This document shows positions 1 to 24,796 of a stretch of DNA of 24,796 bases, piece by piece. The notes beneath the pieces were generated by a model. That model saw nothing but the letters and a program-made list of their open reading frames with translations. It was not told the DNA's origin and made no database searches. Location of the stretch: IMG/VR virus record IMGVR_UViG_3300032278_001503, positions 1 through 24,796 of that record. One strand, written 5' to 3'. The first letter of the stretch is position 1. The number at the start of each line of letters is the position of its first letter. A program made the translations under genes and the position numbers. Source of the DNA: a virus.

Positions 1-78
1 CTCGATTTCTTTCAGTTTCTTAACCGAGTTTTTCAGTTGAACTTGTTTACGTAAGGCGTAGGCAGTTTTCTGTTTCAC
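1..78 (-). CDS. Partial gene, N-terminal 26 codons, function unknown
   Basis: An open frame enters from the left edge and begins at a GTG (76-78) preceded by a GGAGG ribosome site with a 5-base spacer. It is open for all 26 codons to base 1 and is rich in lysine, glutamine and leucine, like the start of a basic helical protein. An ATG at 80-82 just upstream is in another frame and stops after 11 codons, so GTG is preferred. The remainder lies outside the window, so no family can be assigned. It is the last gene seen of the minus-strand run that includes the small membrane protein just upstream. Confidence 0.5.
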   Translation of the reverse strand, partial: MKQKTAYALRKQVQLKNSVKKLKEIE

Positions 79-118
79 TCATTCCTCCGTTATTATGGGA
101 AAATTAAGTCAAGGTCTC

Positions 119-229
119 CTATCTCTGAATGGTGTCTATGAACTTGTTCCAGGTTTTAACTGCTATTGTTTTCTCTTTAGCAAACCAACCTAGAGCAAAG
201 CCTACAATAAACATAAATGTTGTAAACAT
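119..229 (-). CDS. Small single-pass membrane protein, 36 aa
   Basis: A 36-codon frame starts at ATG 227-229 with an AAGGAG ribosome site four bases upstream; that site overlaps the stop codon of the lipoprotein gene before it. Residues 1-17 are strongly hydrophobic (Phe, Met, Ile, Val, Gly) and the rest is basic and polar, so a single membrane-anchored helix with a cytoplasmic tail is likely. It is too short for ordinary gene calling. The tight coupling to the upstream gene and the strong ribosome site argue that it is translated. Function unknown; tiny membrane proteins of this type are common between larger genes in T4-like phages. Confidence 0.6.
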   Translation of the reverse strand: MFTTFMFIVGFALGWFAKEKTIAVKTWNKFIDTIQR

Positions 230-237
230 ATTTCTCC

Positions 238-798: not shown

Positions 799-823
799 CG
801 ATAGTCTCCTTCCAGTTTTAAAA

Positions 824-949: not shown

Positions 950-977
950 ATTTACCTTTTTTCTTCATTATGTGTAT

Positions 978-1710: not shown

Positions 1711-2745
1711 TTATACCTTGGTTTCATATTTTATTAAATTCCCCTCAAATTCGTGTAGACGTTTCCAGATAGAACGTAGTTCTGTAATCGTGGTCCAGTT
1801 GTGTAAGAATAGAGCGAATCCGCCGTGTACTTTGCTGAACGCATTACTGACTTGAACTAGGATTCCTAGCATTATTGCACCAGTAAATAGACTCGGCCCC
1901 ATAATCAAATATGGAACGATAATCATAAACTGGTCATATGTAATCATCCAAGTATCGAAATATCCGTAATGTAGATACAGACGATGATAGTTGAATCTTA
2001 TGCCTGTGAATAGACTCCATATCGTTTCTGGTTTGGCATAATTAATCTTGTCATCTTCACCAAGCACTAAGTCTTTTCTGAAGGCCGCTTCTACTTTCTG
2101 ATTGTTGTATTCCAGTCCTGGAAGTTTCCAACCAACGAACCAACTGATTACTACACCGCCCAAAGATACGACAAGCGTTACCCAAACTAATGAGCCGGGA
2201 ATATCACTGAAAAATGGAATCGTTACGTGAACGCTCAATGCCCAAAGAACTGGGATAAACGCTACGAGTGTCATTACTGCTCGGACTACTTGTAAACCTA
2301 GACCTTCAACAATTCTGGCAAATCTATTACAGTCTTCCTGTATACGCTGACTTGCCCCTTCGATTTCTTCTTTAACAGTTTTCCATCTCGGAATATAATC
2401 AAAAGTAATTGATTCTCGCCATCGTAGTCCATACAATCGAGTAAACCAACCTGTTAGTACGGCTAACAATACATATGGAAATGCCAGTACAGCGAAAGAA
2501 GGTTCACCTTCAAACCCGTTAGTCCAGTAAGCAATACTGACTAACTTATCATAGAATAACGCAATACCTTCTGCTTGTCTGTCTGAATATTCAGCGGATG
2601 TTTGTAGTAAATTATAGAAGCCTCCGTACCATCTGTTTATCGCTACTGTAATTTGTACTTGTATCCATAGAGAAGCAATTAATAATGCCCCTCCACCGTA
2701 GGCCCATAAGGCCCATTTCTTACTTCTATAAAACGCTCTAATCAT
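1711..2745 (-). CDS. sbmA: SbmA/BacA-family peptide transporter homologue
   Basis: The 344-residue product is a polytopic membrane protein that follows E. coli SbmA closely along its length. Shared stretches include NRWYGGFYNLLQT, IEGASQRIQED, VGWKLPGLEYNNQKVEAAFR, LVLGEDD, NYHRLYLHYGYF and a closing WTTITELRSIWKRL. SbmA and BacA are proton-driven inner-membrane importers of peptides and peptide antibiotics. The phage protein is about 60 residues shorter because the first N-terminal segment of SbmA is missing; the core is intact. ATG 2743-2745 is chosen over a GTG six bases upstream because GAGGA is nine bases from it. It lies downstream of nrdB in the same direction. Its role in infection is unknown: peptide or cofactor import, or a change in antibiotic sensitivity, are possibilities. 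Confidence 0.88.
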   Translation of the reverse strand: MIRAFYRSKKWALWAYGGGALLIASLWIQVQITVAINRWYGGFYNLLQTSAEYSDRQAEGIALFYDKLVSIAYWTNGFEGEPSFAVLAFPYVLLAVLTGWFTRLYGLRWRESITFDYIPRWKTVKEEIEGASQRIQEDCNRFARIVEGLGLQVVRAVMTLVAFIPVLWALSVHVTIPFFSDIPGSLVWVTLVVSLGGVVISWFVGWKLPGLEYNNQKVEAAFRKDLVLGEDDKINYAKPETIWSLFTGIRFNYHRLYLHYGYFDTWMITYDQFMIIVPYLIMGPSLFTGAIMLGILVQVSNAFSKVHGGFALFLHNWTTITELRSIWKRLHEFEGNLIKYETKV

Positions 2746-2750
2746 AATCA

Positions 2751-2764
2751 CGCTTCCTCAAGCG
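2751..2764 (-). promoter_or_regulatory. Hairpin with the ribosome site of the SbmA-like gene in its loop
   Basis: On the minus strand CGCTT and AAGCG form a perfect 5-bp stem whose 4-base loop is GAGG, the ribosome site for the transporter gene. Folding could limit or present the site. It lies in the 28-base gap after nrdB. Confidence 0.45.
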
Positions 2765-2773
2765 TATCTCTAG

Positions 2774-3937
2774 TTATAAATCATCTAATGCAAAGTCCTC
2801 ATCTTTACTGTTGTCAATCGCCGCTATGTAATTTACAGACTCAATTTCTTGAGGTGCCGATTTCACATTGCTCGAATCAAGGTAGTTATCTACCCACGGT
2901 ATTGGGTTAAATAACTGGTCGTTCAGTCCAATCTTCTTAGGATTCAGTCCGATATTCTTCATTCTGACCCAGAAGATATAATCTATATAATCTTTCAAAA
3001 TCTGTGCGTTCATACCAATCAAAGGTGTGCCCTTAGAGAATAGATATTCAATCCACTCCATCTCTTCTTCGTATGCTACTTTAAACATATCATACGTTTC
3101 ATCATCGAGGTCTTTGATAATTTCTTTGAATCCTTCGTTCTTATCAGACCGGAGAAGCATCAGGACACGCTGGAATACGTCTAAGTGTATCATTTCATCT
3201 CTAGCAATCAATTTGAATATATTGCTGGAACCAGTCATTAACTTGACAGGTTGCTCAGAGAAGGACCAGTTAGTCACAAATGTAGCAAAGAATCTGATTC
3301 CTTCAAACATATTAAATGCTAGAGCCGCTTTGTATATGGCGGTCTTAATCATTTTCTCGTTAACTTCTTTATAAATCTTCTTTCCGCCATTCTTGATGGA
3401 TGTCTCATTTGCTTCCATCTTTTCAAAGACGCTATTAGACCAATCAAAGGCACTGAGTAGGCTCGTTGCTCGTTTTTGAATATACTCATCATCTATAATC
3501 GACTCGACAAAATCATCAATGTCATTATAGATGGCACGAACCATCTCTGTATATGATTCAGAGTGGAGTAATTCGTTGTTCTGGTGATTTGTTATGTAGA
3601 GTTCCCATTCAGGATTGTTGGACAGACCACCGTTATTAAATAACTGGAGTGGTGCCCTACCCGCCATTGAGTCTAGCGTAATTGCAAATTTTAGACCTGC
3701 TTCGTAGATGTGTCTACCCGCTTCGTCAAGACTATCGAAATCTGTTTTGTCCTTGGACAAGTCAATCTCATTCTTACTCCAATTTCCAATCGCTCTCAAC
3801 TCTTCAGCGAAATCTAGAATCCACTTATACTTGGGGTCGTGATAGGTTTGAATATTCCTATGACCAGAATCTGGTCCGAGAAATAGACGAGTTTTCTTGC
3901 TGTTTACTGTATCTCCAAGTGAGAATATATTACTCAT
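2774..3937 (-). CDS. nrdB: Class Ia ribonucleotide reductase, small (radical) subunit
   Basis: A 387-residue R2 protein. It supplies the tyrosyl radical that NrdA uses to reduce ribonucleoside diphosphates to deoxy forms. All metal ligands of the E. coli enzyme can be placed: Asp89, Glu122, His125, Glu212, Glu248 and His251. The radical Tyr is Tyr129 in LLHSESYTE. The C-terminus (DEDFALDDL) is the acidic, hydrophobic tail that docks on NrdA. GGAG lies six bases before the ATG. It follows nrdA by 11 bases, so the two are co-transcribed as in T4. No intron or intein interrupts it. As both the Tyr and the full ligand set are kept, a conventional diiron-tyrosyl enzyme is expected. Confidence 0.97.
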   Translation of the reverse strand: MSNIFSLGDTVNSKKTRLFLGPDSGHRNIQTYHDPKYKWILDFAEELRAIGNWSKNEIDLSKDKTDFDSLDEAGRHIYEAGLKFAITLDSMAGRAPLQLFNNGGLSNNPEWELYITNHQNNELLHSESYTEMVRAIYNDIDDFVESIIDDEYIQKRATSLLSAFDWSNSVFEKMEANETSIKNGGKKIYKEVNEKMIKTAIYKAALAFNMFEGIRFFATFVTNWSFSEQPVKLMTGSSNIFKLIARDEMIHLDVFQRVLMLLRSDKNEGFKEIIKDLDDETYDMFKVAYEEEMEWIEYLFSKGTPLIGMNAQILKDYIDYIFWVRMKNIGLNPKKIGLNDQLFNPIPWVDNYLDSSNVKSAPQEIESVNYIAAIDNSKDEDFALDDL

Positions 3938-3948: not shown

Positions 3949-6306
3949 TTAAATAGTACAAGCACCGCTCTCGCAGGCTTCATCCCCTTCAATGGGGAGG
4001 TCGTTGTTCATTGACTCTTGATAGTTTAGATTTATTTCGCTCGTATTCTCTTTATCCTTAGAACGGATATAATACAGGCTCTTGAGTCCATATTTATAGG
4101 CTGTTAGAATATCTCGCTTAACTCTATTTGCATCCAGTATCTTCCCTTCAATCTTTGTCAAATCGTACCACTGATTGACACTCATTCCTTGGTCAATAAA
4201 CTTCTGGAGAATTGCCATCAATTTGATATACTCTGAACTGTCGTTATTGGGAAACTCCCACGCTTTCATATAATAACTTTCTTTATCGTAATCTGGCACC
4301 AAACTCTTAACTGTGTATGCGGCAGATTCAAATGTATCTGTCACTGACTGAATTGGGTCGATGCCTTGAGTAGAATTAGAAACGAGGCTAGAACTAGCAG
4401 TTGGCGGAATCGCTGATAGGGTACAGTTCCTCATGCCATATTTTTTTACTTGCTTTCTTAGGTGCTCCCAATCACATAACAGATTATTATCGACAATCTT
4501 ATTCACATTCTTATTGTATGTATCGATTGGAAATTTAACCTCTGAGTATCTACTCTTTTTAAATGCTGTACAAGGACCTCGTTCTTTGGCTAGTCTCATA
4601 CTCGCTTTAATCAGTCCATATTGGAATCGTTCTGCCCATCTGTGTGCTAACTCTTTACTTTTTACAGTGCCGAGTCTTGCTTCGTGTTTAGCGAGAAAAT
4701 GAGCAAAGTCTGAGATACCAATTCCTAAGAATCGATATGCTCTTGTTGGGTATTCGGCCGCGTCTAATGGATATACTTGTATGTCGATTAGATTGTCCAG
4801 AAAACGAACCAACAGATATGTTAGTGCATCAAGTCTAGTAATAGTCTGGAGTTTGCCGAAATTAACACAACTCAGAATGCAGAGGGATATCATACCTTTG
4901 TCGGTATCATAGTCCTCTATATTCTCATACTTAGTAGTTTTCAGTCCCTCGAAAGTCATTGGTTTCGTAGGCAAGAAAATTTCTGAACATAAGTTTGTCT
5001 GTGTGATTGGTTCCTTGAACATACCCTGCTTATTCATATTATCAATGAAATGTATATAGATACGGCCAGTTCCAACTCGTTCTTTGACAAGTTTATTAAA
5101 GATATCAATTGCGGGAACGCTCTTCTTTCTGATTCCACGCTTAGTCTCATATCTTAAATAAGCCTCTTCAAATTTCTTGGTATCTCCATAATGCTCAAAT
5201 AATTCAGGCACATCTTCAGAACTGAATAGGGTAAAGTCCTCTTTCTTCATATATCTATCAATGAAGATACTAGGAACACCAATTGAATAATCTATGAATC
5301 TTGCTCTTGTCGTATTGGAACCTTGATTGTTCTTATACTCAAGAACGTCCATAATCTCCCAATTAAAAATAGGATAGTTTACTACAGTAGCACCAGTCCT
5401 CAGTGAATTTTGTGTGAACTGTTTTGATACTGATTCGATTGCTTTAAGTAATGGAAGTGCGCCAGTATGTTTTACTGTGCCTTGTTTTACTGGAGCGAGA
5501 ACTCCTCTGACTGGGCCCATATCGATACCAATACCTGCCCTCTGACTTGTCATCAATGAAGTAGCATATTCGGTAGCGAGAATCGACTCAGCCGTATCAC
5601 CCATCTTAATCTTACAACACGAACTAAACATTTTCAATTTAGTGCGAACACCAGAGATTACTGGAGTCGGCAGACTTATCTCATCATTCTTTAAAGCATT
5701 GTAGAAGTCAATAACCAAATTCATTCTTGCGCCGTTGCCATTGGAATTTTCATCAGCAAAAATGACCATAGGAATAATCATAAAAGTTTCCTGTGGCATC
5801 TCCAATAGAACGTCTTTATTCTTTACATCTCGGATTAAATACTTTGAGTCTAACTGAACCACGGAAGCATATCCGCGATTTATGTCATTGTCATAATCTA
5901 AAAACGTACCGAGTTCTGCTATCTCTTCTTCGGTATATTTTTCGAGTATGTCAGGCGAGTACAGTTTTCTGTCTACGTGGCCCTTTATGTATTCAAGAAA
6001 TGGCGTGGGCTCAATATTCTTGTATACCTGCTTCCGCATATCAATCATAAGCAAACGCCCTGCAAAGATGTCATAGTCTGGCATCTCAGGACTTATTTTT
6101 TCAGCGGCAGATTTAATTAATGTCTGTTGAATATCTCGTGAAGATATTTTATTGACAATCTTGATGTGGGCGGTAATTGCGGTTTCGGAAACGGATACGT
6201 TCAACCCATTTGAACACCATTCCAGCATCTTGTGTATTTTATCATAATCTAGTGGCTCCAGGGTTCCGTCCCTTTTTCGTACTAGATTTTCCTTAATTTC
6301 AACCAT
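3949..6306 (-). CDS. nrdA: Class I ribonucleotide reductase, large (catalytic) subunit
   Basis: A 785-residue catalytic subunit. Residues 1-90 form an ATP-cone allosteric domain (starting near NLVRKRDG). The active-site motifs are present: the Cys pair in SSCCKIK (230-231), Asn438-Cys440-Glu442 in TNLCSEIF and Cys480 in LSCVNFG. A Tyr-Tyr pair near the end (SLYYIRS) carries the radical, and the C-terminal CESGAC supplies the shuttle cysteines re-reduced by thioredoxin or glutaredoxin. The start at 6306 has GGAG five bases upstream; an in-frame ATG at 6324 has none. It is followed 11 bases later by nrdB. The presence of the ATP cone suggests dATP feedback control is retained, which some phage enzymes lose; this is inference. 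Confidence 0.97.
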   Translation of the reverse strand: MVEIKENLVRKRDGTLEPLDYDKIHKMLEWCSNGLNVSVSETAITAHIKIVNKISSRDIQQTLIKSAAEKISPEMPDYDIFAGRLLMIDMRKQVYKNIEPTPFLEYIKGHVDRKLYSPDILEKYTEEEIAELGTFLDYDNDINRGYASVVQLDSKYLIRDVKNKDVLLEMPQETFMIIPMVIFADENSNGNGARMNLVIDFYNALKNDEISLPTPVISGVRTKLKMFSSCCKIKMGDTAESILATEYATSLMTSQRAGIGIDMGPVRGVLAPVKQGTVKHTGALPLLKAIESVSKQFTQNSLRTGATVVNYPIFNWEIMDVLEYKNNQGSNTTRARFIDYSIGVPSIFIDRYMKKEDFTLFSSEDVPELFEHYGDTKKFEEAYLRYETKRGIRKKSVPAIDIFNKLVKERVGTGRIYIHFIDNMNKQGMFKEPITQTNLCSEIFLPTKPMTFEGLKTTKYENIEDYDTDKGMISLCILSCVNFGKLQTITRLDALTYLLVRFLDNLIDIQVYPLDAAEYPTRAYRFLGIGISDFAHFLAKHEARLGTVKSKELAHRWAERFQYGLIKASMRLAKERGPCTAFKKSRYSEVKFPIDTYNKNVNKIVDNNLLCDWEHLRKQVKKYGMRNCTLSAIPPTASSSLVSNSTQGIDPIQSVTDTFESAAYTVKSLVPDYDKESYYMKAWEFPNNDSSEYIKLMAILQKFIDQGMSVNQWYDLTKIEGKILDANRVKRDILTAYKYGLKSLYYIRSKDKENTSEINLNYQESMNNDLPIEGDEACESGACTI

Positions 6307-6364
6307 TTCGACTCCATAAAACAAATAAGATGCACAATGTCTGCACCTGTAATCTCATTCCCCC

Positions 6365-6859: not shown

Positions 6860-6945
6860 TCGGCGACCTTCGCTAATTGTGACATTACCCATATTATAAA
6901 CCAAATTGCAGTTAGTCCAAGAACTACGTCTGCAAGTTTGCTCAC
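6856..6945 (-). CDS. Small single-pass membrane protein, 29 aa
   Basis: A 29-codon frame starts at GTG 6943-6945, overlapping the stop of the glycosyltransferase gene by four bases (GTGA), with AAGGA about eight bases upstream. It ends at a TGA that overlaps the start of the nucleotidyltransferase. Residues 6-20 form a hydrophobic helix with two Trp. Its precise fit between two coupled genes and the ribosome site support translation. It could tether the cassette enzymes to the membrane, but only position suggests this. Confidence 0.55.
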   Translation of the reverse strand: MSKLADVVLGLTAIWFIIWVMSQLAKVAE

Positions 6946-7901
6946 ACTCTATTTCCTTTCTTATCCGTATTCGTTAAGACAAGTCCATAATTATTATCGA
7001 CTGCAGGAAGATTCTCAAACTCAGGCTTGTACTTCAGTTTGTTTTTCTTAAATGGCCCATAGTCACAATAATGATGCCATCTTCCGTATTTCCATACTAT
7101 GCGACAAACGTCTGGGTGCATATCCACTAACATCTGACTCTTCTTAATAGTTCCCTCAGGATTATAATAACTCTCTTTAAACTCTTCATTGTCTGTGGCT
7201 TCAGCGTGATAAAATTCTTCTGTATTACCACCCCCTACAGTTTGCGTTGCACATTTGCCTTGGAGAAAATGATTGAACTGTACTGTACAATCACCGTCTT
7301 TTAGAATTCTCAATGAAAGGTCAGTATCTTCGTTGTAGCGACCTCTCCATCTATGTACACAATCATTCTTGATTAAGTTGCAAGAGTATATTCGAGTGTT
7401 AGTCACAAATGGTGGATACTTCTGATTCGGTGCTATGAAGAATCTATATTGCAGTCCAGACATTTTGATGTTCTCATATCTATTACAAAAATCTTCGCAC
7501 GACCTAAACAGTGAACCATTCTCTACACGATATCGAAAATTCTTTTGTAGCCTATAGAAATCAGAAATGTTATCATCCATTACCCAATGCCACTCTGTAC
7601 CTAGAACATCTTTAGCGTGGTCCCAACACCAATTTCTCGCTCTACCTGGGCCGTCTCCGTGATTTGAAAACGGAAGAATCAATAGTATAGCATAGTTCGA
7701 TAGACCGAACTTCTTTAATGCTAGTTCATACGGCTTTTCGTCTTGTGGTTCAATAGCAATATAGTGATGTATTTTCATCCGAGTCAAAGACTTAGATGTT
7801 ATCATCGAATCGGCACGCCCTTTACTAATAGTGTAAAGAGGGTATTGTGGATAATGCGGGTCCTCACATCCGTTTCTTTGTCGTTGTGGACTCATAGGCA
7901 T
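6942..7901 (-). CDS. GT-A glycosyltransferase-like protein, resembling the TET-associated (TAGT) family
   Basis: The 319-residue product has a run typical of this group: GPGRARNW at 84-91, then WVMDDN at 106-111 where GT-A enzymes carry a DxD metal motif, and an acidic NEDTDLSLR near residue 192 in the place of the catalytic ED. From memory these match TAGT, described by the Aravind group as glycosyltransferases linked to oxidised or hydroxymethylated pyrimidines in phage and eukaryote genomes. No TET/JBP dioxygenase or pyrimidine hydroxymethylase is visible in this window. A ribosome site AGGAG lies nine bases before ATG 7901. Its neighbours are two more glycosyltransferase-like genes and a nucleotidyltransferase. 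DNA, protein or glycan could be the acceptor; a plain GT2-like enzyme is the main alternative. Confidence 0.65.
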   Translation of the reverse strand: MPMSPQRQRNGCEDPHYPQYPLYTISKGRADSMITSKSLTRMKIHHYIAIEPQDEKPYELALKKFGLSNYAILLILPFSNHGDGPGRARNWCWDHAKDVLGTEWHWVMDDNISDFYRLQKNFRYRVENGSLFRSCEDFCNRYENIKMSGLQYRFFIAPNQKYPPFVTNTRIYSCNLIKNDCVHRWRGRYNEDTDLSLRILKDGDCTVQFNHFLQGKCATQTVGGGNTEEFYHAEATDNEEFKESYYNPEGTIKKSQMLVDMHPDVCRIVWKYGRWHHYCDYGPFKKNKLKYKPEFENLPAVDNNYGLVLTNTDKKGNRV

Positions 7902-8136: not shown

Positions 8137-9251
8137 AATACCTCACAGTGAAATGTATCCTGATTCATAAAATTGGTCAATGATGGTTTTTCTTTTATAT
8201 CAAATGTTGTATTATACACCATCTGGTACCATTTGTCAACCCATTTTTCTTTGCTGTGTTTCTTCTTTGTTGCATCGCTTATGGTCAATCGGTCCTCATA
8301 AGAATATTTTTTGAATTCGTTAATTGATTCTGCTAACTCGTCTGGCGTACATTTTATGGACATTCTCTCAAAATGAGCATAGTCCGCTGGAATGATTTCC
8401 GAAGCGTGTCTACCACTCTTATCACATAAGAGAATAACAGGCAATCCGTGTAGGAGTGCTTCCATACAAGTGATACCCCACGATTCTACAGGCATAGTTG
8501 AGACATAGACTGATGCCTCAGACATCGAATCTAGCGTATCTCTGTGACTCAGTCCTCTGTAGGTACACTGAGGCTCTTTCCAATGTAGATTATCATCCCA
8601 ATATTTTACTTGATTTGCGCCGTGTTGAAAATTGTCTTTGTTGGTTAGAACGAGGGAAGACAATCCAGTAGACTGTAATTTCTTATGAAGAAGAAATGGA
8701 TTCTTCGTCAAGTCCGTTCTGCCAATAGTTACTGCATCATACCAATTCAAGGAGTGTTTTGCTACTAACTCATTACCAGTAGCAAAGCCTGAGTTTATTG
8801 TTCCTTTGACTCCAATCAATGGGTCTCCAGTGACTCGTTCAACGTGACTCTCGTGAAATTTTTGTTGATACGCTGACACAAAATATAAATGACCGCCCGC
8901 ATTGATGAATTTCTGCATACCTTTCCACCAGGCTACATATCGTATATCTCGCACAAGTGGTTCGTGAGCAACTGCAATTGTTGGTATACCCTCGTCTATC
9001 TGAGGAAGTAACCAATACGCATCAATATCATTGACTATAATAATGTCTGGATTATGTCTACGGACAGCATCGAGATAAATCTTTTTTGTCTTTTTTGCTT
9101 TTCTATCTTCTGGTGTAATTTCTACTGGAATTGCTTCAGGAAATACCTCATACAAACTCTTAGTGAATTTCTCAATTCCGCCAACTACAGTTTGACTGTG
9201 TATGTTATTACCGCTTCTTGACAAGTAAGGAAGAAGAATTTTCTTGCTCAC
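8133..9251 (-). CDS. GT-B fold glycosyltransferase, family 4-like
   Basis: A 372-residue protein with the two-domain layout of GT-B enzymes. The C-terminal half carries the EX7E signature of GT4-like retaining enzymes (ESWGITCME, Glu256 and Glu264), followed by a GLPVI segment and a serine-rich stretch typical of the nucleotide-sugar site. T4 DNA alpha-glucosyltransferase also has a GT-B fold, but I see no close similarity to it. The GTG start (9249-9251) overlaps the previous stop by four bases (GTGA); an in-frame TTG at 9263 is less likely. It is the third gene of the operon that begins at 10527. Donor and acceptor are unknown. DNA glycosylation or surface glycan synthesis are both possible. 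Confidence 0.8.
   Translation of the reverse strand: MSKKILLPYLSRSGNNIHSQTVVGGIEKFTKSLYEVFPEAIPVEITPEDRKAKKTKKIYLDAVRRHNPDIIIVNDIDAYWLLPQIDEGIPTIAVAHEPLVRDIRYVAWWKGMQKFINAGGHLYFVSAYQQKFHESHVERVTGDPLIGVKGTINSGFATGNELVAKHSLNWYDAVTIGRTDLTKNPFLLHKKLQSTGLSSLVLTNKDNFQHGANQVKYWDDNLHWKEPQCTYRGLSHRDTLDSMSEASVYVSTMPVESWGITCMEALLHGLPVILLCDKSGRHASEIIPADYAHFERMSIKCTPDELAESINEFKKYSYEDRLTISDATKKKHSKEKWVDKWYQMVYNTTFDIKEKPSLTNFMNQDTFHCEVL
8211..8239 (-). promoter_or_regulatory. Consensus sigma70-type promoter inside a coding region
   Basis: On the minus strand TTGACA (8234-8239) and TATAAT (8211-8216) are 17 bases apart. The whole site lies inside the final codons of the GT-B gene (encoding part of WYQMVYNTT) and would drive the 48-aa membrane protein, the TAGT-like gene and the nucleotidyltransferase. 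Confidence 0.85.
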
Positions 9252-10168
9252 ATTATACCCCAATCTTTAATCAGTGGGCGACCATTCGCCGCAAACTCTT
9301 CAAGTGGAGATTTCACTTTAGGTCTATATACTTTCGACCAACAATGTCTATATTTCATATCACCATCTTTATTCTTTTGAAGTTTTAATCCGTGTGGAAA
9401 TTTCTTCTTAATATATTCATATCCAACTTTAGCGGCATCAGACGTATTGTACCATTTGTGATAATCTTTAATAGTATCTGGAATTTTCTTGTCATCATAC
9501 ATTCCTGTCCAGATTTCTCTAGTGTCTTTCATTTCTTTATAGTTACTTAGAGATTGATTATCGTGCATCCATTCTGTGGATTGGCGAGTATTAATACCTC
9601 GTGATAAACATTCAAACAAAAACAAAATATCTTCTGCTACTCTGATTGAGGTGATATCCATATCATCAATTTCTTTTGACAACATACGTCCATCAATCAT
9701 TATAATTTCTGTAATACATTTAGTGTCAACATATTCAGTGTTCGCTGGTGGGAATCCCGATTGTGAAAATCCAGCGATACCAATATCAGGCTCATCTAGC
9801 CACTTGTCCATAGTATCAAACGCTTCGAGAATTTCTTCTGGCTTGGCTCTTCGTCTAGACTTTTCCATATTGGACTTTCCTGTCCAATACTTTGCGTTTC
9901 TTCGCCCAAGGAGAATATCATCATCAGCGACACAATACTTAATCGCACCAGCGTGTTTGTGGATAAACTTTCGGGTCTCTGCTAATTGAGTCCAAGTGCC
10001 AACTAATTTTTCTGGGATTTCTAGATACTTGCAAGGATAATTATAGAGGTATCTTTCTTTAGACTCTATAACCATAATGACTCTCTTCTTCAACTCATCA
10101 GGAAGATTGTCATACGTAATTTGGTTGTTAGCCCGCCTTACAGTAGGAATGTAGATTCGTTCTATCAC
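9248..10168 (-). CDS. GT-A glycosyltransferase-like phage protein
   Basis: About 306 residues. It opens with ERIYIPTVRRANNQITYDNL, a start I know from a widespread set of phage proteins of glycosyltransferase type, and has an acidic triplet DDD at 82-84 within VADDDILLG, the expected DxD metal and nucleotide-sugar site. The start is placed at GTG 10166-10168, which overlaps the previous stop by four bases and puts the conserved IYIPT four residues from the N-terminus. A TTG at 10186 opens a slightly longer frame. It is sandwiched between a conserved phage protein of unknown function and the GT-B gene, all coupled by GTGA overlaps. The reaction is not known; similarity to the TAGT-like neighbour is limited to the general fold. 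Confidence 0.65.
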   Translation of the reverse strand: MIERIYIPTVRRANNQITYDNLPDELKKRVIMVIESKERYLYNYPCKYLEIPEKLVGTWTQLAETRKFIHKHAGAIKYCVADDDILLGRRNAKYWTGKSNMEKSRRRAKPEEILEAFDTMDKWLDEPDIGIAGFSQSGFPPANTEYVDTKCITEIIMIDGRMLSKEIDDMDITSIRVAEDILFLFECLSRGINTRQSTEWMHDNQSLSNYKEMKDTREIWTGMYDDKKIPDTIKDYHKWYNTSDAAKVGYEYIKKKFPHGLKLQKNKDGDMKYRHCWSKVYRPKVKSPLEEFAANGRPLIKDWGIM

Positions 10169-14609: not shown

Positions 14610-14816
14610 ATGCTATGGTTACTGATAGTAATTCATTTAAACTTGCAGTCGGTCCCAATACAAGTAGAACACGGAGAAATAATTGGAACTTTCCAGAATG
14701 CTCAAGACTGTAATAAGAAACACGCTGAATTTTTCGAGGCAGCGAAGGCCGATGGGCAGGTAATACCGCCCTTCTTCAACCTCGGATGTATAATGTTAAA
14801 AATGGTACACGTATGA
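14610..14816 (+). CDS. Small secreted or membrane-anchored protein, function unknown
   Basis: A 68-residue product with a short hydrophobic N-terminus (MLWLLIVIHLNL) and a polar body with two Cys (DCNKK and LGCIM), which could be joined by a disulfide in the periplasm. GGAGG lies five bases before the ATG, a strong ribosome site. The stop overlaps the start of the following Fe-S carrier gene by four bases (ATGA), so it sets that gene's translation. Not recognisable by family. Confidence 0.6.
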   Translation: MLWLLIVIHLNLQSVPIQVEHGEIIGTFQNAQDCNKKHAEFFEAAKADGQVIPPFFNLGCIMLKMVHV

Positions 14817-15124
14817 TTAAAATATTAGAAAATGCTAAAAGCAAATTAGAAGAACTTAGGGTTCAACACGATAAAAAATTCGTTAGACTATCTGTTACGG
14901 GTGGTGGTTGTGCTGGACTAGGATATGAATGGGAGTTTGAGGATGCTCCCGATTTATCCGATATAGTTGTTGATAATATGTTATTGATTGACCAAATGTT
15001 TGAAATGTATATTATGGGAATGGAATTAAACTACAACGCTTCTGCGTTTGAGTCAGGCTTCACTTTCAACAATCCCTTAGCCACATCCCAATGCGGATGC
15101 GGTACAAGTTTCTCCGTACAATAA
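14813..15124 (+). CDS. A-type iron-sulfur carrier (HesB/IscA family)
   Basis: A 103-residue protein of usual length for the family. The three ligand cysteines are present: one in VTGGGCAGLGYEW and the C-terminal pair in SQCGCGTSF. A-type carriers accept Fe-S clusters from a scaffold and pass them to apo-proteins in the cytoplasm. ATG 14813-14815 overlaps the preceding stop; a longer frame upstream to 14786 is unlikely. HesB/IscA-type genes have been reported in marine myoviruses. Lying in a late-type unit between secreted proteins, it may serve a phage Fe-S protein made late, or support host cluster delivery under stress. It is one of two such genes here. Confidence 0.9.
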   Translation: MIKILENAKSKLEELRVQHDKKFVRLSVTGGGCAGLGYEWEFEDAPDLSDIVVDNMLLIDQMFEMYIMGMELNYNASAFESGFTFNNPLATSQCGCGTSFSVQ

Positions 15125-15527: not shown

Positions 15528-15848
15528 ATGTCCATTACAGTTACTCAAGCCGCACAAGAAAAGATTGCGAGTCTATGTTCGGAATCCAATATGATAGGTG
15601 TTAGAGCATTCGTCTATGGAGGCGGATGCTCTGGTATGAATCATAGTCTGACGTTTGTAGATGAAGTGGAAGACCGAGACACCAAAATATCAGATAATTT
15701 TTATATCGACCCAGTGGCTATGCAGTTTATGGTAGGTGCTACAGTAGATTATGAAAATACGGATTCGAGACAATCTTTTGTGTTTTCTGATGTATTCAAA
15801 GAACAAGGCGGTTCTGGCGGATGCCAGGGTTGCGGAATGAGTTACTAA
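15528..15848 (+). CDS. Second A-type iron-sulfur carrier (IscA/ErpA-like)
   Basis: A 106-residue protein of the HesB/IscA family. It opens with ITVTQAAQEKI, the usual first helix, then has the first ligand Cys in YGGGCSGMNH. The C-terminal pair is in GGCQGCGMSY: the cysteines are two residues apart rather than in the canonical Cys-Gly-Cys, which may change cluster geometry. AGGGG lies five bases before the ATG, and the gene starts right after the previous stop. It differs from the first carrier (14813) over most of its length, so the two are not a recent duplication and may have separate clients. A bidirectional hairpin follows. Confidence 0.88.
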   Translation: MSITVTQAAQEKIASLCSESNMIGVRAFVYGGGCSGMNHSLTFVDEVEDRDTKISDNFYIDPVAMQFMVGATVDYENTDSRQSFVFSDVFKEQGGSGGCQGCGMSY

Positions 15849-15891: not shown

Positions 15892-15912
15892 AAAAAACTC
15901 TTTTAGAAAGAG
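15892..15912 (-). terminator. Terminator overlapping the porin stop codon
   Basis: On the minus strand CTCTTT (15907-15912) and AAAGAG (15898-15903) form a 6-bp stem with a 3-base loop, followed by six Ts (15892-15897). It spans the porin stop codon and precedes the stronger hairpin. Confidence 0.6.
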
Positions 15913-16775
15913 AGTCTAAATCCTACAGTAAGGATGTTGTCATCATTATGTACGCCGTTAACATACACGGACGCATTTTCATCTAAATTATGTGCCACTT
16001 CTAAGATGTACTGATTAGTACCATCTTCGATGTTTTGATACCCACCTTTAAGGTCATTCTGACCAAGTGAATACTGAGCAACATAACTTAACGTGTTAGT
16101 CGTAACACCTGCAGAGGTTTCATCCTGTGCAAAAGTACCACCGATTGTAACCCCTTTCAGAGTGTAAGTGCTACCACCTAAAATGGTGCTGACACCCGTA
16201 ACGTCATCTTTAGCATATGCTCCGACAAGACCGATTCCAGCGATTCGATAAGAAGCGCCTGCTCCCCAAGAATCTAGGCTATCAAAGTCATTATCAACTT
16301 CAGCGGTACCTACTAGAGATACACCACCCAAAGAAAATTTTGTCTTTGCTTGATTGCCCACTCGACCAGAACTTTGGTCACCTTCAAAATATGCTCCTTC
16401 AAAAATATTGACAGTGTTATCTGCAACATTTCTTTCGATGCTAGGCATACGTCCAATTGAGAACTCAACTGGTCCTAGTCCAACACCTATAAAAGCATCT
16501 CTTGCCGAGATATCTATGTCCTCATCAAGTTCACCTGATAGAGTGCCAAAGACATTGGTTCCCCATAACTCTCGTTCTACAGATACTCCAGCATAAGTTC
16601 CCCCACCAGTTGTAAAATCGTGGTCGTTGTTATACTGATATGCCCCTTCGATTTGACCAAATGTGAGAGTCTTGATTCCTAAATCGGCCTCAACACTCTT
16701 TTCATTGGCAAAACTAAGAGTCCCAGCCGTCGCCAGGGTTAACGCAACAATTGTTGCTATGAAATATTTCTTCAT
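15903..16775 (-). CDS. Gram-negative outer-membrane porin, phage-encoded
   Basis: A 290-residue protein with a signal peptide (residues 1-23, cleavage likely after LSFA). The mature part shows alternating polar/hydrophobic beta strands with tight Asp/Asn/Gly turns throughout, for example SYRIAGIGLVGAYAKDD, and ends in TVGFRLSF: a C-terminal Phe after alternating residues is the signal for beta-barrel assembly by BAM. Length (about 267 mature) fits a small 16-strand porin. The start at 16775 has GGAAGG upstream; the ORF itself opens further upstream. It is read alone from a late-type promoter. Phage porins are known (lambdoid phage PA-2 Lc), but I do not know a close relative of this one. It may change permeability or mask receptors. 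Confidence 0.85.
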   Translation of the reverse strand: MKKYFIATIVALTLATAGTLSFANEKSVEADLGIKTLTFGQIEGAYQYNNDHDFTTGGGTYAGVSVERELWGTNVFGTLSGELDEDIDISARDAFIGVGLGPVEFSIGRMPSIERNVADNTVNIFEGAYFEGDQSSGRVGNQAKTKFSLGGVSLVGTAEVDNDFDSLDSWGAGASYRIAGIGLVGAYAKDDVTGVSTILGGSTYTLKGVTIGGTFAQDETSAGVTTNTLSYVAQYSLGQNDLKGGYQNIEDGTNQYILEVAHNLDENASVYVNGVHNDDNILTVGFRLSF

Positions 16776-16828
16776 TTTTACCTTCCGTTTCATCATTTAA
16801 ATCTAATAGATATCCCTATCTATCACCT

Positions 16829-16861: not shown

Positions 16862-17218
16862 TCACTCTCGACCCATAAAATATTTATCAGCATTTACAGA
16901 CTTATCGCAGATATATAGGTCAAAATGTGGTTTATCTCCACATATGAGGGCTGTATGTTTTGCTCCCCATTTGTGTAGTTGTGCCATAGTTGTGTCGTAC
17001 CAATCAATACCTGATTGGGTACCACGGGCTGTCCAGTAAGTGATATTATGCCCTTGTTCATATAGTCTATTAATCTCAGCAATTCTGTCCATCATAGGTA
17101 TAGCATCTTCATAATTCCAAGGTCTTTCTTTGTCTTGCACACCAGTACAAATGGTACCATCTATGTCTACAAAAATACTCTTTACGTTGCCATTAGAACT
17201 AAGTTCGTATTCACGCAC
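16862..17218 (-). CDS. HAD-family phosphatase, small
   Basis: A 118-residue protein. HAD motif I is FVDIDGTIC (two Asp at residues 18 and 20), motif II is in YWTARG, and CGDKPHFDLYICDKSVN gives the conserved Lys and acidic motifs, so the catalytic set looks complete in a capless minimal fold. The family includes small phosphatases acting on sugars and nucleic-acid ends; the middle part (RIAEINRLYEQGHNITYW) resembles those seen in capsule and polynucleotide-phosphatase contexts. The GTG start (17216-17218) overlaps the end of purM by eight bases and has GAGGG upstream. Substrate unknown. It is a separate gene from the deoxyribonucleotidase at the other end of the window. Confidence 0.75.
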   Translation of the reverse strand: MREYELSSNGNVKSIFVDIDGTICTGVQDKERPWNYEDAIPMMDRIAEINRLYEQGHNITYWTARGTQSGIDWYDTTMAQLHKWGAKHTALICGDKPHFDLYICDKSVNADKYFMGRE

Positions 17219-18227
17219 CGTTTTTCCCTCTCATAGCATCCGTGCCTTTTGGTAGTCGCTTCTCAATTCGACCACAAATAACTGGAGATTCTCCAAGTTC
17301 TGTTAATTGTTCTATGATTTTTACTGCAAAATCTTTATCAACAATCAGTATCATTCCAATGCCGTCATTGAATACTCTTTTCATCTCTTCGTCTGAGATA
17401 TCACCTTTGTCTTGAATCCAATCAAACTCTTCTGGGCGACTCCAATCGTCACTCCATATTGGTCGTAGATTAAATCCTTCTCCTAGAAGTCTGAGAATAT
17501 TGTCTCTGCCGCCGCCAGTGATATGAGCAATGCCCCTAACTCTTTTTGGATATTTTTTCGTTACTGCTAATACAGAACTCACATAAATTCGTGATGGTGC
17601 TAAGAGGCTTTTCAAAATATTATCAGTAACAACATTGTTTTTTGACACTACGTTGTCCCAGACTTTTCTAATCAGCGTATATCCATTGCAATGAAATCCA
17701 GACGATTTCAAACCAATCATCATATTGCCACCGTTGATTTCTCTACCATCAATGAAATCAGTTTTCTTACAGACGCCAACTCCAAAGCCAGCAAGATTGA
17801 ATTCGCCCTTCTTGTGGTCGCCAGGTAGTATAGCAGTCTCGCCACCGATTAATGGCACATTGGGGCCGCACTGTAAGAGGGCTTCTTTAATACCATCAAA
17901 CAATTCTAGATACTCGTCTCCTGATTTTAAATCGTGTACTGAAAGATAATCATTCATAAACAATGGTCTTGCGCCAGTGCAAACAATATCATTCATCACT
18001 GCCGACACAAGGTCGTGCCCAAGATTCTTAATCTGAGCATCAGGACTATCTCTATTCTGAGTATATAATTTTATTTTTGTTCCGATGCCATCTGTTGCTG
18101 ATACAATATAATCGTCTCCGATATCGTATGCTCCAGCATAGCCACCAATCCACGGCATCTTCGCCGCGAGTTTGGCGTTGAACATATTCTGGTCTTGTAA
18201 ATCTACACCTGCTGATTGATAGTCCAT
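17211..18227 (-). CDS. purM: Phosphoribosylformylglycinamidine cyclo-ligase (AIR synthetase)
   Basis: A 338-residue enzyme of normal PurM length. It closes formylglycinamidine ribonucleotide to aminoimidazole ribonucleotide with ATP, the fifth step of purine synthesis. Visible signatures include SATDGIGTKIKL near residue 45, NDIVCTGARPLFMNDY, LIGGETAILPG and GIAHITGGG. It follows directly on the Cys-rich gene, with the ATG one base after that stop codon. purM is a known auxiliary gene of marine T4-like phages, where extra purine synthesis supports genome replication alongside nrdAB. No truncation or missing motif is seen. The rest of the purine pathway would be supplied by the host or genes outside this window. 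Confidence 0.95.
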   Translation of the reverse strand: MDYQSAGVDLQDQNMFNAKLAAKMPWIGGYAGAYDIGDDYIVSATDGIGTKIKLYTQNRDSPDAQIKNLGHDLVSAVMNDIVCTGARPLFMNDYLSVHDLKSGDEYLELFDGIKEALLQCGPNVPLIGGETAILPGDHKKGEFNLAGFGVGVCKKTDFIDGREINGGNMMIGLKSSGFHCNGYTLIRKVWDNVVSKNNVVTDNILKSLLAPSRIYVSSVLAVTKKYPKRVRGIAHITGGGRDNILRLLGEGFNLRPIWSDDWSRPEEFDWIQDKGDISDEEMKRVFNDGIGMILIVDKDFAVKIIEQLTELGESPVICGRIEKRLPKGTDAMRGKNGA

Positions 18228-18953: not shown

Positions 18954-20297
18954 CTATAAATTATCTGCCTCAGATTTGTCTAATCTAAGTTCTTGGAAGA
19001 TTGGCAAAAACAATCTCGAAACTGAACTATTTTTGTCTTGAATCTTCTCATTGTACTTAACGGAAACTATTTTCCCGATAAACTCGTCTGGGTCTCTTTT
19101 TCTATCTTCATCGGTGAGACCAGAACCAACTCTGACTTTAAGAGTTCCATCTTTCGATGTACACTCAAGGGCGCCTATTAAACCGTCATTTTTGCCTGTA
19201 CCGTTTGTGACTCCTTCTACTAAAAGGTCTGCTTCTAATTCTGCTTTCATTTTGACTTGATATTTAGAACGCTTATTTTCCCAAGGGGAATCTCCATTCT
19301 TAACAATAACTCCTTCTTCGCCATCTGCTAATGCTTCTTGAAATACGGCTTCACATTGTTCATAATTATCTACAGGTGCCGCTGGAAGAATCATAACTAG
19401 ATGCTTATCTTGAGCATTATATACGGCATCCATTCTTTCTTTCAGAACGTCTAGTCTGTCATAATATGGTATAGCACAAAATCCTTTTTTGAAATCTTCT
19501 AGGGGTATCATATCCCAACACCACAATCTTACTCGCTTTGTCTCTTCTTTTGAAATTGTTCCCTTTACTGCTTTATTTAGGATTCCATTACCAGTCTTTC
19601 TGTCTAATATCTTTTCTTCATTCTCATCAAGAACAATTAATTCTCCATCGAGAACGGCTCCGTGAAAATGAGATAAGTCTTCCAAAGTGGATGATTTGTA
19701 AAATATCTGCATCACAAACGCATCGAAATGTCCATCAAGAGAAATCTGTTTACCGTTACGTGAACGCACATCTACTCCGCCCTCTTTATCGATGATAACA
19801 TTTGCTCTCATACCATCCATTTTCGTCTGTATCAGAGCGGGATATTTGATGTTCTCAAAAGACTTTTGATTGAAAGCACTTGCCAACATACACGGATATG
19901 TCTCTATAAACTTCTTGCCAAATATCTTATTGACTGTCGCAATCTGTACTCCACACTTCAGGTCCTTCGTCACCACACGTTTAATGACCATTGCATCATC
20001 TTCTTCTATTCTGCCCAGAAGATTGCTTAAATAGTTAATGGCTTCGTTGCCGGTTTTCTCTCTGCTAGTTAAAATGAATAATTGGTCTAGGGCCCAGTCG
20101 AGGTCCATCGTTGCTCTTGTTATAGAGTTGCGGTCATATTCTGGAATTTTCCTCTGATGATACTGTGTATATGGGTCTAATGCGGCCCTTAATACTCGTT
20201 TAAGGGTCTCATTATCCTTATTCTCTTCAAGAATGGCCTCTTTAGCCAATCTTGAATTATCAGATTCAAGTGCCTTTAATATGTCGCTTACTTTCAT
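18954..20297 (-). CDS. 30: ATP-dependent DNA ligase, T4 gp30-like
   Basis: A 447-residue ligase. The adenylated lysine is Lys159 in IQTKMDGMRANV, the same number as in T4 gp30. Further nucleotidyltransferase motifs follow: RSRNGKQ, GAVLDGELIV, EEGVIVKNGDSPW and KYQVKMKAELEADLLV. An OB domain occupies roughly residues 350-440. It seals nicks in lagging strands and repaired DNA and pairs functionally with RNase H encoded upstream. It is about 40 residues shorter than T4 gp30. AGAGG lies seven bases before the ATG, inside the end of the 59-aa gene. No missing motif is seen. Confidence 0.96.
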   Translation of the reverse strand: MKVSDILKALESDNSRLAKEAILEENKDNETLKRVLRAALDPYTQYHQRKIPEYDRNSITRATMDLDWALDQLFILTSREKTGNEAINYLSNLLGRIEEDDAMVIKRVVTKDLKCGVQIATVNKIFGKKFIETYPCMLASAFNQKSFENIKYPALIQTKMDGMRANVIIDKEGGVDVRSRNGKQISLDGHFDAFVMQIFYKSSTLEDLSHFHGAVLDGELIVLDENEEKILDRKTGNGILNKAVKGTISKEETKRVRLWCWDMIPLEDFKKGFCAIPYYDRLDVLKERMDAVYNAQDKHLVMILPAAPVDNYEQCEAVFQEALADGEEGVIVKNGDSPWENKRSKYQVKMKAELEADLLVEGVTNGTGKNDGLIGALECTSKDGTLKVRVGSGLTDEDRKRDPDEFIGKIVSVKYNEKIQDKNSSVSRLFLPIFQELRLDKSEADNL

Positions 20298-21732: not shown

Positions 21733-21935
21733 TTATTTTTCTCCAGTTCGTCTACTAACTCCCAAAAGAAATCACGGAGAGTATCGACATCTTGGACTTT
21801 AACGTCCTTTAACTCGAAACTAACATCGCCATTTTTGTATCTGACGAATCCTATTTCAAGAGAACTCACAGGTCCTCTCGGCTTCTGTTTCTTTTTCTCT
21901 TTCTCTTTCTCGTTTATTTCATTTACGAATTCCAT
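21729..21935 (-). CDS. Small charged protein, function unknown
   Basis: A 68-residue protein. The first 22 residues are a Lys/Glu-rich segment (NEKEKEKKKQKPRG), then LEIGFVRYKNGDVSFELKDV suggests a beta hairpin and TLRDFFWELVDELEK a C-terminal helix. AAGGG lies eight bases before the ATG, and the stop overlaps the RNase H start. Not recognised; it may be a small partner of the replication proteins on either side. Confidence 0.6.
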   Translation of the reverse strand: MEFVNEINEKEKEKKKQKPRGPVSSLEIGFVRYKNGDVSFELKDVKVQDVDTLRDFFWELVDELEKNK

Positions 21936-21936
21936 C

Positions 21937-23229
21937 TTATAATCCCTTCAGTTCTCTAATGAATTCTTTGGTTGTGTTGATAACTTTCCATTTTTCTATC
22001 TGTTTGTATAGGGCAGTACCGTCTTTCTTTAGCCTATCTAACTCGTCTTGACAGAGGGAGTATATAGGCATTTTGATTAATATATCTATTATATCAGATT
22101 TAAAGTGGGCTGTCAACTCTTTTTTGATAGTTTTTCGGTTTTTATTCTTAAAATCTAGTCTTCCATCAAGCACCATTTCAATAAATTGTATCTTGGCCTG
22201 AATCGTTTCCAGCGCCTCATGCCCTTCGGCAATCAGGAATTTATATCGTTCGGCATATTTCTTAATACGATAGTCACAAAAATCTTTGATGATATCAATC
22301 GGAGAGTCATAGACTTTCAATTTACCATCGTGATTGATGACCGTCATATTCTCATTAATCTTTTTCTTCAACTGGAACATTGCTACTATGCCAGAACCAG
22401 TAGGCTTCTTACCACGCTTTAGAGTAACATCAAATTTGAATCCTGTTTTATCACACTTATCAGTATACGATACAATCTTACCGGCATCTTCTAACTTGTC
22501 CAATACCTGAACATATGACTCACGAGTGAATCCGATTGGAACTTCTGTGATTTGTAATTTCGTTGAACCAGAAATTGTCGCTTTGCCTTCGCAATATGTG
22601 GCATCGTTTTCCACATACACTCGACCAGAGAATTCTGGATAATGTGGTAGTGGCTTCTCTTCGAGGTCTATGTCATATCCATCAAGATACATTCGACATA
22701 AATCAGCAATCTCTTGTGGGTCCCTGGGCTGAATCTCAGTGGCGAATCCAACTGCAATTCCTTTGATTCCATTCACTAACACCCACGGGATGATAGGAAG
22801 ATAGAATGCCGGTTCTGGGTCTTCCGGGTCGATGCTCTTATCAGCGACCATTGTATCAGCAAAATACTTATCAAAATTTTCGCTCATTTTGACATACGTG
22901 TATCGTGGGGCAGCGGCATCTGGTACCAGTCTCGACCCGAAACTCCCCTCACCCTCTAGTAATGGTATATTATTCGAGTGAGACTGGACCATTTTTGTAA
23001 TTGCTTCGTTCAACGAGGCATCGCCGTGATGATAGTTCGCACTTGATATCGTATTGCCACTTAACGAGGCAGTTTTAAGACGACCATTCTTAGCAGTCTT
23101 TAACGCTGTATAGAGAATCTTCCTCTGTGATGGTTTGAGACCATCAATCATATGAGGAATTGCTCTGCTATACAGAACGTATTTGCTATAGTCTTTGTAT
23201 TGTCCGTCAATCAGTTCAGTTATATTCAT
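21937..23229 (-). CDS. 52: Type II topoisomerase medium subunit, T4 gp52-like (GyrA/ParC-type)
   Basis: A 430-residue DNA breakage-reunion subunit (T4 gp52 is 442). It follows the GyrA N-terminal region: DGLKPSQRKILYTAL near residue 30, SANYHHGDASLNEAI, LLEGEGSFGSR and the catalytic Tyr in AAAPRYTYVKMS. There is no C-terminal beta-pinwheel, as in T4. ATG 23227-23229 overlaps the stop of the large-subunit gene (ATGA), so the subunits are translated in step; a longer frame to 23241 is possible. The enzyme relaxes and decatenates phage DNA in replication. A consensus promoter lies within its 3' end. Confidence 0.95.
   Translation of the reverse strand: MNITELIDGQYKDYSKYVLYSRAIPHMIDGLKPSQRKILYTALKTAKNGRLKTASLSGNTISSANYHHGDASLNEAITKMVQSHSNNIPLLEGEGSFGSRLVPDAAAPRYTYVKMSENFDKYFADTMVADKSIDPEDPEPAFYLPIIPWVLVNGIKGIAVGFATEIQPRDPQEIADLCRMYLDGYDIDLEEKPLPHYPEFSGRVYVENDATYCEGKATISGSTKLQITEVPIGFTRESYVQVLDKLEDAGKIVSYTDKCDKTGFKFDVTLKRGKKPTGSGIVAMFQLKKKINENMTVINHDGKLKVYDSPIDIIKDFCDYRIKKYAERYKFLIAEGHEALETIQAKIQFIEMVLDGRLDFKNKNRKTIKKELTAHFKSDIIDILIKMPIYSLCQDELDRLKKDGTALYKQIEKWKVINTTKEFIRELKGL
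22088..22116 (-). promoter_or_regulatory. Consensus sigma70-type promoter inside gene 52
   Basis: On the minus strand TTGACA (22111-22116) and TATAAT (22088-22093) are 17 bases apart, with an A-tract and GAG upstream. It lies within the coding part of gene 52 (around FKSDIIDI) and could transcribe the genes from 21935 on: the charged protein, RNase H and ligase. Confidence 0.85.
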
Positions 23230-24796
23230 TTCATTAACCATAGTTTTCTCGGAATAGGATTCTTTCCGAATGCGGTTTCGAGTGAAGAATTCGCCTCACT
23301 GTCGTATTCAAGTACCTCTGTCACTGGGTCATTAATCATCAAATCATACTCATCGACTGATAAACTACCTAATCCCTTATTATACTCTATTTTCCAACTC
23401 GTGTCAAGTCTTTCGTTCTCAAAATCTTTGAGGTCATAGTATCTCTTAATGTCTTTGCCTTTCTTGGCAATCACGATTGGAGACTTAATCAGTAACACTC
23501 GCTCTTCCTCGAACAACTCTTTCCAGTTAGAGAAGAAGTTGACGAGTAGGGCGGCGATAGAGAATCCATCGAAATCAGCATCCGCTAGAATGCCAATCTG
23601 TCCGTAATTCAAATCTTCTGCTGGCTCACCCAGTTCAAGACCGATGATGCTCATCAGTTCTGATAATTCTTTGTTCTTCATAATGTCAGTGGGTTTCAGT
23701 TCTCTCACATTACGCACTTTACCACGCAATGGAAATCCACCGTGGATGTCTGTCTTTCTTACGTTGATTAAATTACTGATTGCGGATTGTCCCTCTGTGA
23801 TAAACAGAATCTTATCATCTGGATTCTTGCTTGATGCAGAGATATGACTCGCAACCTTTTTCTTTCTGGCATCTTTGTTTGCTTTACGTAAGTTACGTGC
23901 CTCTGCTAACTGTTGCTTGAGTAATAGAGCCTCGATGATAGGCTGAATCAACTCTTCGTTTCGCATAATGCGACCGATGAATTTCTCTTCAGTCACGCCA
24001 TCAAAGACTGGCTTTATCTCATTAGCATTGTTGGTCAATCGCTCTTTTGTCTGACTATCAAATTTCGGGTCACCAATCGAATTCGTGACTACAACAAACA
24101 ACAATCGATTTTTGATATCAGCAGGGCGAATAGTTAATTTGAATTTTCTTTTGATTGCATCTTTCAGAGCCCAAGCGATATCACTAGAAACAATATCAAT
24201 ATGAACACCACCGCCGAAGGTATCAATGCCATTGACAAAACTAATGGTACCCATACTCTCTGCTGGCAGAACTGCCACTTTGAATTTAGGAGTTTCAAGA
24301 ACCTCATTAGTCTCTCCTAACTTTTTGAGATATTGTTTGAACGTGCCTGCTTGTACGACTCGGCCATTATATTTGAATCTGATTTTCGGAAAACATACTG
24401 CGAGGTCGTGTACTCGTTTTTCAATCAGCCCTTTGTGGTCGTCATCGACTGATTTCATTCCGAGACGGTCAAAGTCTGCGAAATACGAAACGGTTGTGCC
24501 TCGTTCTCCTTTTGATTTTGTTATTTCTGTATCATACTCACTTAGATTACGAGTACAATGGAGACGAAAATGTTTCTTCCCATCGTCTGTGTGAGCGATA
24601 AATTTCTTTGATAGAATGTTTACAAGAGTAGCGCCAAGACCGTGAGTACCGATAGATACGTGTCCATCATCGTCAAAGTTTGCACCCGCTCTTAGATTAG
24701 TGAAGGCTTGTTCTGCTTGGGTGATACCAACATCGTCAAGAGATTCAACTACTGGAATTCCTCGACCGTTGTCGGTCACTGTGATTTTACCGTTGT
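23226..24796 (-). CDS. 39: Type II topoisomerase large subunit, T4 gp39-like (GyrB/ParE-type), 5' partial
   Basis: The frame runs to the right edge, so the N-terminus is missing. What is seen (about 523 residues) starts just before DNGRGIPV, a GHKL ATP-site motif, then HGLGATLVN, a transducer domain, and a TOPRIM domain with ITEGQSA (catalytic Glu) and ILADADFDG (metal-binding Asp). It is one continuous gene where T4 splits the subunit into 39 and 60 with a translational bypass. It hydrolyses ATP to drive strand passage with gp52, encoded next and overlapping by four bases. A consensus promoter lies near its 3' end. Confidence 0.95.
   Translation of the reverse strand, partial: NGKITVTDNGRGIPVVESLDDVGITQAEQAFTNLRAGANFDDDGHVSIGTHGLGATLVNILSKKFIAHTDDGKKHFRLHCTRNLSEYDTEITKSKGERGTTVSYFADFDRLGMKSVDDDHKGLIEKRVHDLAVCFPKIRFKYNGRVVQAGTFKQYLKKLGETNEVLETPKFKVAVLPAESMGTISFVNGIDTFGGGVHIDIVSSDIAWALKDAIKRKFKLTIRPADIKNRLLFVVVTNSIGDPKFDSQTKERLTNNANEIKPVFDGVTEEKFIGRIMRNEELIQPIIEALLLKQQLAEARNLRKANKDARKKKVASHISASSKNPDDKILFITEGQSAISNLINVRKTDIHGGFPLRGKVRNVRELKPTDIMKNKELSELMSIIGLELGEPAEDLNYGQIGILADADFDGFSIAALLVNFFSNWKELFEEERVLLIKSPIVIAKKGKDIKRYYDLKDFENERLDTSWKIEYNKGLGSLSVDEYDLMINDPVTEVLEYDSEANSSLETAFGKNPIPRKLWLMK
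23379..23407 (-). promoter_or_regulatory. Consensus sigma70-type promoter inside gene 39
   Basis: On the minus strand TTGACA (23402-23407) and TATAAT (23379-23384) are 17 bases apart. It lies in the coding part of gene 39 (around WKIEYNKGL) and could transcribe gene 52 separately from gene 39. Confidence 0.85.

Follow-up and report, generated by a model that had tools for sequence, protein, structure and literature searches.

The window analyzed here, a virus record of 24,796 bases from IMG/VR (IMGVR_UViG_3300032278_001503), contains no GATC, no AGCT and only two copies of CATG. By its gene content it is a fragment of a T4-like marine myovirus from the ocean, uncultured and presumably lytic. 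We consider it very probable that several Type II restriction enzymes have long exerted selection on this phage, with their recognition sites lost, the set of lost words switching by lineage, and the few surviving sites lying where methylation could shield them.

Missing words in the window

The absence of GATC had been noticed by eye in a first-pass annotation, and an exact count over positions 1–24796 gave 0, for both strands because the word is its own complement. That annotation had estimated ~38% GC and ~80 copies expected by chance, close to the measured 39.0% and to the 85 copies expected from base composition; the Markov comparison that it proposed gives 98–110 expected copies against 0 (110 for first order; 98 for second order, Poisson P ~3e-43). 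Since the window is largely coding, we also used a stricter null in which synonymous codons were shuffled 300 times with the proteins and the codon usage fixed. Under this null, 71.8 ± 6.1 GATC are expected in the genes and the lowest shuffle contained 46, against 0 observed. AGCT is likewise absent (48–75 expected from Markov models, and 59 in the genes from the codon shuffle), and CATG occurs twice, at 4432 and 22218 (77–102 and 61 expected, respectively). With an observed-to-expected ratio (O/E) below 0.1 taken as site elimination, all three words are eliminated under both kinds of null, with ratios of 0, 0 and 0.03 for GATC, AGCT and CATG. The codon choice follows the same rule: Asp before a C is written GAC 48 times and GAT never, as the annotation had seen in the places it checked, while elsewhere GAC is used 134 times and GAT 291 times, and Ile following a G is never ATC. 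CCGG, GCGC and CGCG stand at about 0.3–0.4 of expectation, and GGCC, ACGT, GTAC, CTAG and GANTC show normal counts.

The three most depleted 4-mers are palindromes. In the GATC-free relatives described below as group A, depletion is next strongest in words such as GCWGC (26/190, observed/expected, as in all such pairs hereafter), CGWCG (14/164), TTCGAA (5/83), ATGCAT (0/40) and AACGTT (2/45). Among the 6-mers that contain none of GATC, AGCT and CATG, 9 of the 41 palindromes but only 20 of the 1,939 others have an O/E below 0.1 (Fisher P 2e-9). The avoided words are thus short palindromes of the kind recognized by Type II enzymes, and GATC is one among several that were purged, which argues for several Type II systems and not for a GATC-only process such as Dam/MutH. 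The proposal of the annotation that a GATC-cutting host restriction system had exerted long selection stands as the best-supported explanation, as one part of a wider pattern.

Separately from these palindromes, GGAGG/CCTCC stands at 0.35 of expectation in group A genes and runs of A are depleted in coding DNA, possibly because slippery runs and internal sites resembling ribosome-binding sites are avoided.

Avoidance in relatives and its switching between lineages

No named phage is close to the window in DNA, and many IMG/VR contigs are. Seven distinct contigs including the window (group A; 227 kb in total, leaving out G026, which is 99.9% identical to G002) together contain 0 GATC (952 expected), 4 AGCT (694 expected) and 13 CATG (962 expected). 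In their genes, pooled for this purpose with those of G026, the codon shuffle predicts 686 GATC, 540 AGCT and 547 CATG against 0, 4 and 10 observed. The contigs are mostly 75–85% identical to one another in DNA, so the absence of GATC is not that of a single genotype counted repeatedly, and the ~51 kb of pooled group A DNA outside open reading frames (ORFs) of at least 100 amino acids is GATC-free as well.

Close relatives avoid other sets of words. In group B (G009, G047, G011 and G029) CATG is still banned (5 observed vs 471 expected in genes) while GATC is carried (585 vs 702). The remaining GATC and AGCT deficit of this group sits mainly in 6-bp sites such as AAGCTT (1/62), AGATCT (1/59) and CAGCTG (8/40); weak selection on the 4-mers was considered as its cause and rejected, since most other GATC contexts are near neutral. 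Group C lacks GATC, CATG, CCGG and GGCC and has normal AGCT, in group D, GATC and CCGG are missing and GGWCC is avoided, and none of these words is avoided in group F, which belongs to the same NrdA family. In trees of the large topoisomerase subunit (23226–24779, minus strand) and of NrdA (3949–6324, minus strand), group B is nested among GATC-free rows, and a single clade of GATC-free rows was rejected (approximately unbiased test, P = 0.0008, for a group named after the tree was seen). Three rows, L012, L013 and L015, are intermediate, with 4 GATC of 31–39 expected. The avoidance belongs to the virus and not to background DNA: relatives have GATC near expectation, as do most of 80 loci taken from bacterial genomes that share a gene with it. 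Specificity for palindromes together with specificity for lineages is what Type II restriction predicts.

One further contig, L081, is essentially identical to the window over ~9.5 kb; all GATC and AGCT that it carries fall in the first 300 bases, which are possibly a chimeric or divergent end.

Routes of site loss

When the genes of group B were aligned to their best group A orthologues, none of the 187 GATC sites in group B was kept in group A, while control words of the same letters were kept in roughly 18–47% of cases. Both amino acids are unchanged at 116 of the 187 lost sites. The most frequent replacements are GACC (73 times), GTTC (13) and GATT (11), with no C-to-T signature.

Contexts of the surviving sites

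The CATG sites that survive stand in particular contexts. In the window's own lineage (the window, G001 and G027), 10 of the 13 remaining CATG overlap GGCC, as GGCCATG or its complement, although GGCCATG makes up only ~3% of the expected CATG sites (enrichment P ~1e-13). The other three are GGCATG and include both sites of the window, one at 4432–4435 inside nrdA in the context CCTCATGCC, i.e. GGCATGAGG, and one at 22218–22221 inside the gene of the medium topoisomerase subunit, again in the context CCTCATGCC. Counted in genes, GGCCATG occurs in this lineage as often as expected (7 vs 6.8) while all other CATG are reduced to 3 vs ~222; the remaining group A contigs have lost GGCCATG as well (0 vs 6.1 expected in genes). 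In group B, all seven CATG survivors are CCATGG (P ~2e-8), and the further contigs L355 and L440 add CCATGG survivors. All four AGCT sites left in group A lie in CCAGCT/AGCTGG, a small set to which later contigs add more, one of them in a tRNA-like stretch. The GATC survivors of other groups have no clear shared context. These contexts were noticed after the counting, and some of those from later contigs repeat, in another assembly, a site already counted.

The CATG survivors likely persist where an overlapping methylated motif would block the cutting enzyme. A flank preference of that enzyme is less likely, because the survivor contexts differ between lineages. We tentatively take the survivors to be a footprint of phage DNA methylation, at GGCC in the window's lineage and at CCATGG in group B, that would shield CATG; in this specific form the proposal falls a little short of an even chance. 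The window's lineage would then always have been made in GGCC-methylating cells, so that CATG overlapping GGCC would be immune and would persist at neutral frequency, and methylation of CCATGG would play the shielding role in group B. In the window's lineage, GGCC itself ranges from normal to enriched. We suggest that a GGCC methylase may be present in nearly all hosts, so that the phage would always arrive methylated there and GGCC would be under no pressure, while restriction systems carried by only some strains would purge their sites. A marine study found GGCC among the motifs methylated in viral but not in cellular assemblies (PMC9516812). The survivor-context signal is the new detail of this work, a limited literature search having met no matching description of it. 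If the reading is correct, survivor contexts could show which restriction and which methylation an uncultured virus has met, with no need for methylation data.

Probable restriction by hosts and alternative explanations

The explanation that we favor is as follows. Ancestors of the phage would repeatedly have met hosts with Type II systems cutting unmethylated GATC, AGCT and CATG, and also GCWGC, CGWCG and several 6-bp palindromes. Site-bearing phages would be cut on entry, and the sites would be removed one base at a time, mostly by synonymous changes. The purged words differ between close lineages, apparently in step with the restriction systems that each lineage meets in its hosts; where a system was no longer met, the sites may drift back, as for GATC and AGCT in group B.

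Several points weigh against this explanation. Restriction as the agent is read from the pattern, and no cognate restriction gene was found: DpnII (PF04556) was unmatched in 20 genomes that share the SbmA gene of the window, though none of these is an established host and DpnII is not the only GATC enzyme; a search of SbmA-sharing genomes for ICEA/NlaIII had no positive control and cannot be read. GATC and AGCT mostly switch jointly (17 rows lack both, two lack only GATC and 30 lack neither), which several independent systems would not predict, on the backing of only three independent tree contrasts. Since GATC methylases without a nuclease are common, a GATC-recognizing process other than cutting is also formally conceivable.

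One alternative is methyl-directed mismatch repair, in which MutH would cut replicating phage DNA at unmethylated or hemimethylated GATC and thereby counter-select the word. Phage phiX174 is completely devoid of GATC, as is the window, and counter-selection through Dam/MutH has been proposed for enterobacteriophages (PMC5014478). However, phiX174 is a single-stranded DNA phage, and mismatch repair predicts the loss of GATC alone, whereas the window and its relatives have lost AGCT and CATG equally, plus GCWGC, CGWCG and 6-bp palindromes, words that have no role in mismatch repair. In addition, none of 20 gene-sharing genomes, which are not established hosts, had a MutH match, with a positive Escherichia coli control. 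Because of the other lost palindromes, we rejected a GATC-only explanation as the sole cause and regard mismatch repair as very unlikely; the other option raised in the annotation, another GATC-recognizing process, is disfavored to the extent that it means a GATC-only process of the Dam/MutH type. A host among the Thaumarchaeota would account for two of the words at once, because ammonia-oxidizing archaea methylate exactly GATC and AGCT and a phage infecting them might avoid both. Thaumarchaeota BD3 methylates GATC (m6A) and AGCT (m4C), Nitrosomarinus is the subject of another such report (PMC6329791), and the joint switching described above would fit. These methylases were reported as lone methylases, though, and CATG is not among their motifs (PMC6329791), and the genes of the window include those for a peptidoglycan lysozyme, an outer-membrane porin-like protein, a class Ia reductase and a proteobacterial SbmA, so that we give an archaeal host hardly any weight.

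A mutational or compositional origin, through damage, deamination, polymerase bias or words that are rare community-wide, has the slightest chance of the alternatives. The phage does have other compositional biases, such as its fewer A-runs, but close relatives of similar composition, like the bacterial DNA of gene-sharing genomes, have GATC near expectation, and deamination or another mutation bias was rejected on the substitution spectrum and the same-letter controls given above. Phages can also degrade host DNA through sequence-specific nucleases, and a process directed at GATC, AGCT or CATG could be encoded by the phage itself, for example a nuclease that degrades host DNA and cuts the phage too. 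As fragments, the contigs could simply miss such a gene. However, no match to N6/N4, D12 or C5 DNA methylases was obtained in the group A and B records, one of which spans 124 kb, and the CATG survivors depend on an overlapping motif that differs between lineages. A phage-encoded methylase was rejected on the former result (PF01555, PF02086 and PF00145 unmatched in group A or B records), and we hold a phage-encoded process in general to be highly improbable. PF01555 matches do occur in the deeper relatives G013, G023 and G043.

Relation to known cases of site avoidance

The phenomenon itself is known, from the GATC loss of phage K and phiX174 and from the widespread elimination of Type II sites, and the comparative material is unusually good here. 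Staphylococcus phage K is, like the source of the window, a large myovirus without GATC (GATC 0/125 and GGCC 0/32 in 50 kb counted here), and its GATC loss has been described as restriction-site elimination in avoidance of Sau3A (PMC6532042). It differs in belonging to another virus family with a Gram-positive host and in retaining AGCT (205/185) and CATG (87/127); in the present case more words have been purged, and their set switches among close relatives. Rusinov et al. (2018) found that palindromic Type II sites are avoided or eliminated in prokaryotic viruses and that GATC is under-represented in each of the 46 phages that infect hosts with a matching enzyme (PMC6286503). Their starting point was hosts and enzymes already known, whereas in the present case the phage sequence itself gives the avoided set. 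The related marine T4-like phages HTVC008M and P-SSM4 also lack particular palindromes, but different ones: in 50 kb, HTVC008M has TCGA 0/62 with GATC at 24/100, and P-SSM4 has CCGG 0/25 and GCGC 0/25 with GATC at 235/206. Most known examples of restriction avoidance are cultured phages with known hosts, whereas this is an uncultured ocean clade in which orthologous genes display each change. If the missing words mirror the restriction enzymes of the hosts, a clue to the host can be read from sequence alone; if the survivor contexts report methylation, they supply the other half of the restriction-modification picture, testable on existing long-read viral metagenomes.

Gene content and hints to the host

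The genes that place the window among T4-like marine myoviruses (Kyanoviridae-like) are on the minus strand. The large and medium (21937–23241) subunits of a T4-like type II topoisomerase, a T4-like ATP-dependent DNA ligase (18954–20297) and the class Ia ribonucleotide reductase, with NrdA as its large and NrdB (2774–3937) as its small subunit, have PHROG matches at E < 1e-80, and NrdA is ~40% identical to that of cyanomyoviruses. A T4-type RNase H-like exonuclease and purM (17211–18227, minus strand) are also encoded. No T4-type capsid or tail genes were seen in the window, no dedicated test having been made; the relative G027, which overlaps it, has large ORFs that look virion-like.

A phage lysozyme (endolysin; 10595–11161, minus strand) points to a host with peptidoglycan and an outer-membrane porin-like protein (15903–16796, minus strand) points to a Gram-negative one, and together with the class Ia reductase they suggest a Gram-negative bacterial host. 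The porin-like protein is 25% identical to a porin of Pelagibacter phage HTVC008M (E 2e-9, a weak match), its gene is present in several contigs of the clade, and it had no match in 21 of the SbmA-sharing genomes. A phage-made porin could alter the surface of the infected cell. The SbmA/BacA-family transporter (1711–2751, minus strand) nests among marine alphaproteobacterial homologues and is 91% identical in G027; it may hint at an alphaproteobacterial host, but only weakly, since this is a mobile gene that just two of the close contigs carry. An SbmA 90% identical to that of the window lies beside a methyltransferase-like ORF in L258 (PCAX01000075.1), which is filed under a Chloroflexi metagenome-assembled genome and looks like a misbinned phage contig.

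Two glycosyltransferases (6942–7901 and 9248–10186, minus strand) belong to a PHROG family that takes its name from the T4 DNA glucosyltransferase; the thymidylate synthase/deoxycytidylate hydroxymethylase family, examined with regard to global protection by hypermodified bases, had no match in 18 records, mostly fragments. Two different genes for A-type (ErpA/IscA-like) iron-sulfur carriers (14786–15124 and 15528–15848), on the plus strand and thus opposite to most genes, flank a small gene with a signal-like start. In two further contigs, the NrdA match extends over ~3.6 kb for 757 residues (L141:8021–11577 and L142:1971–5527), and an intein or intron in the gene is probable.

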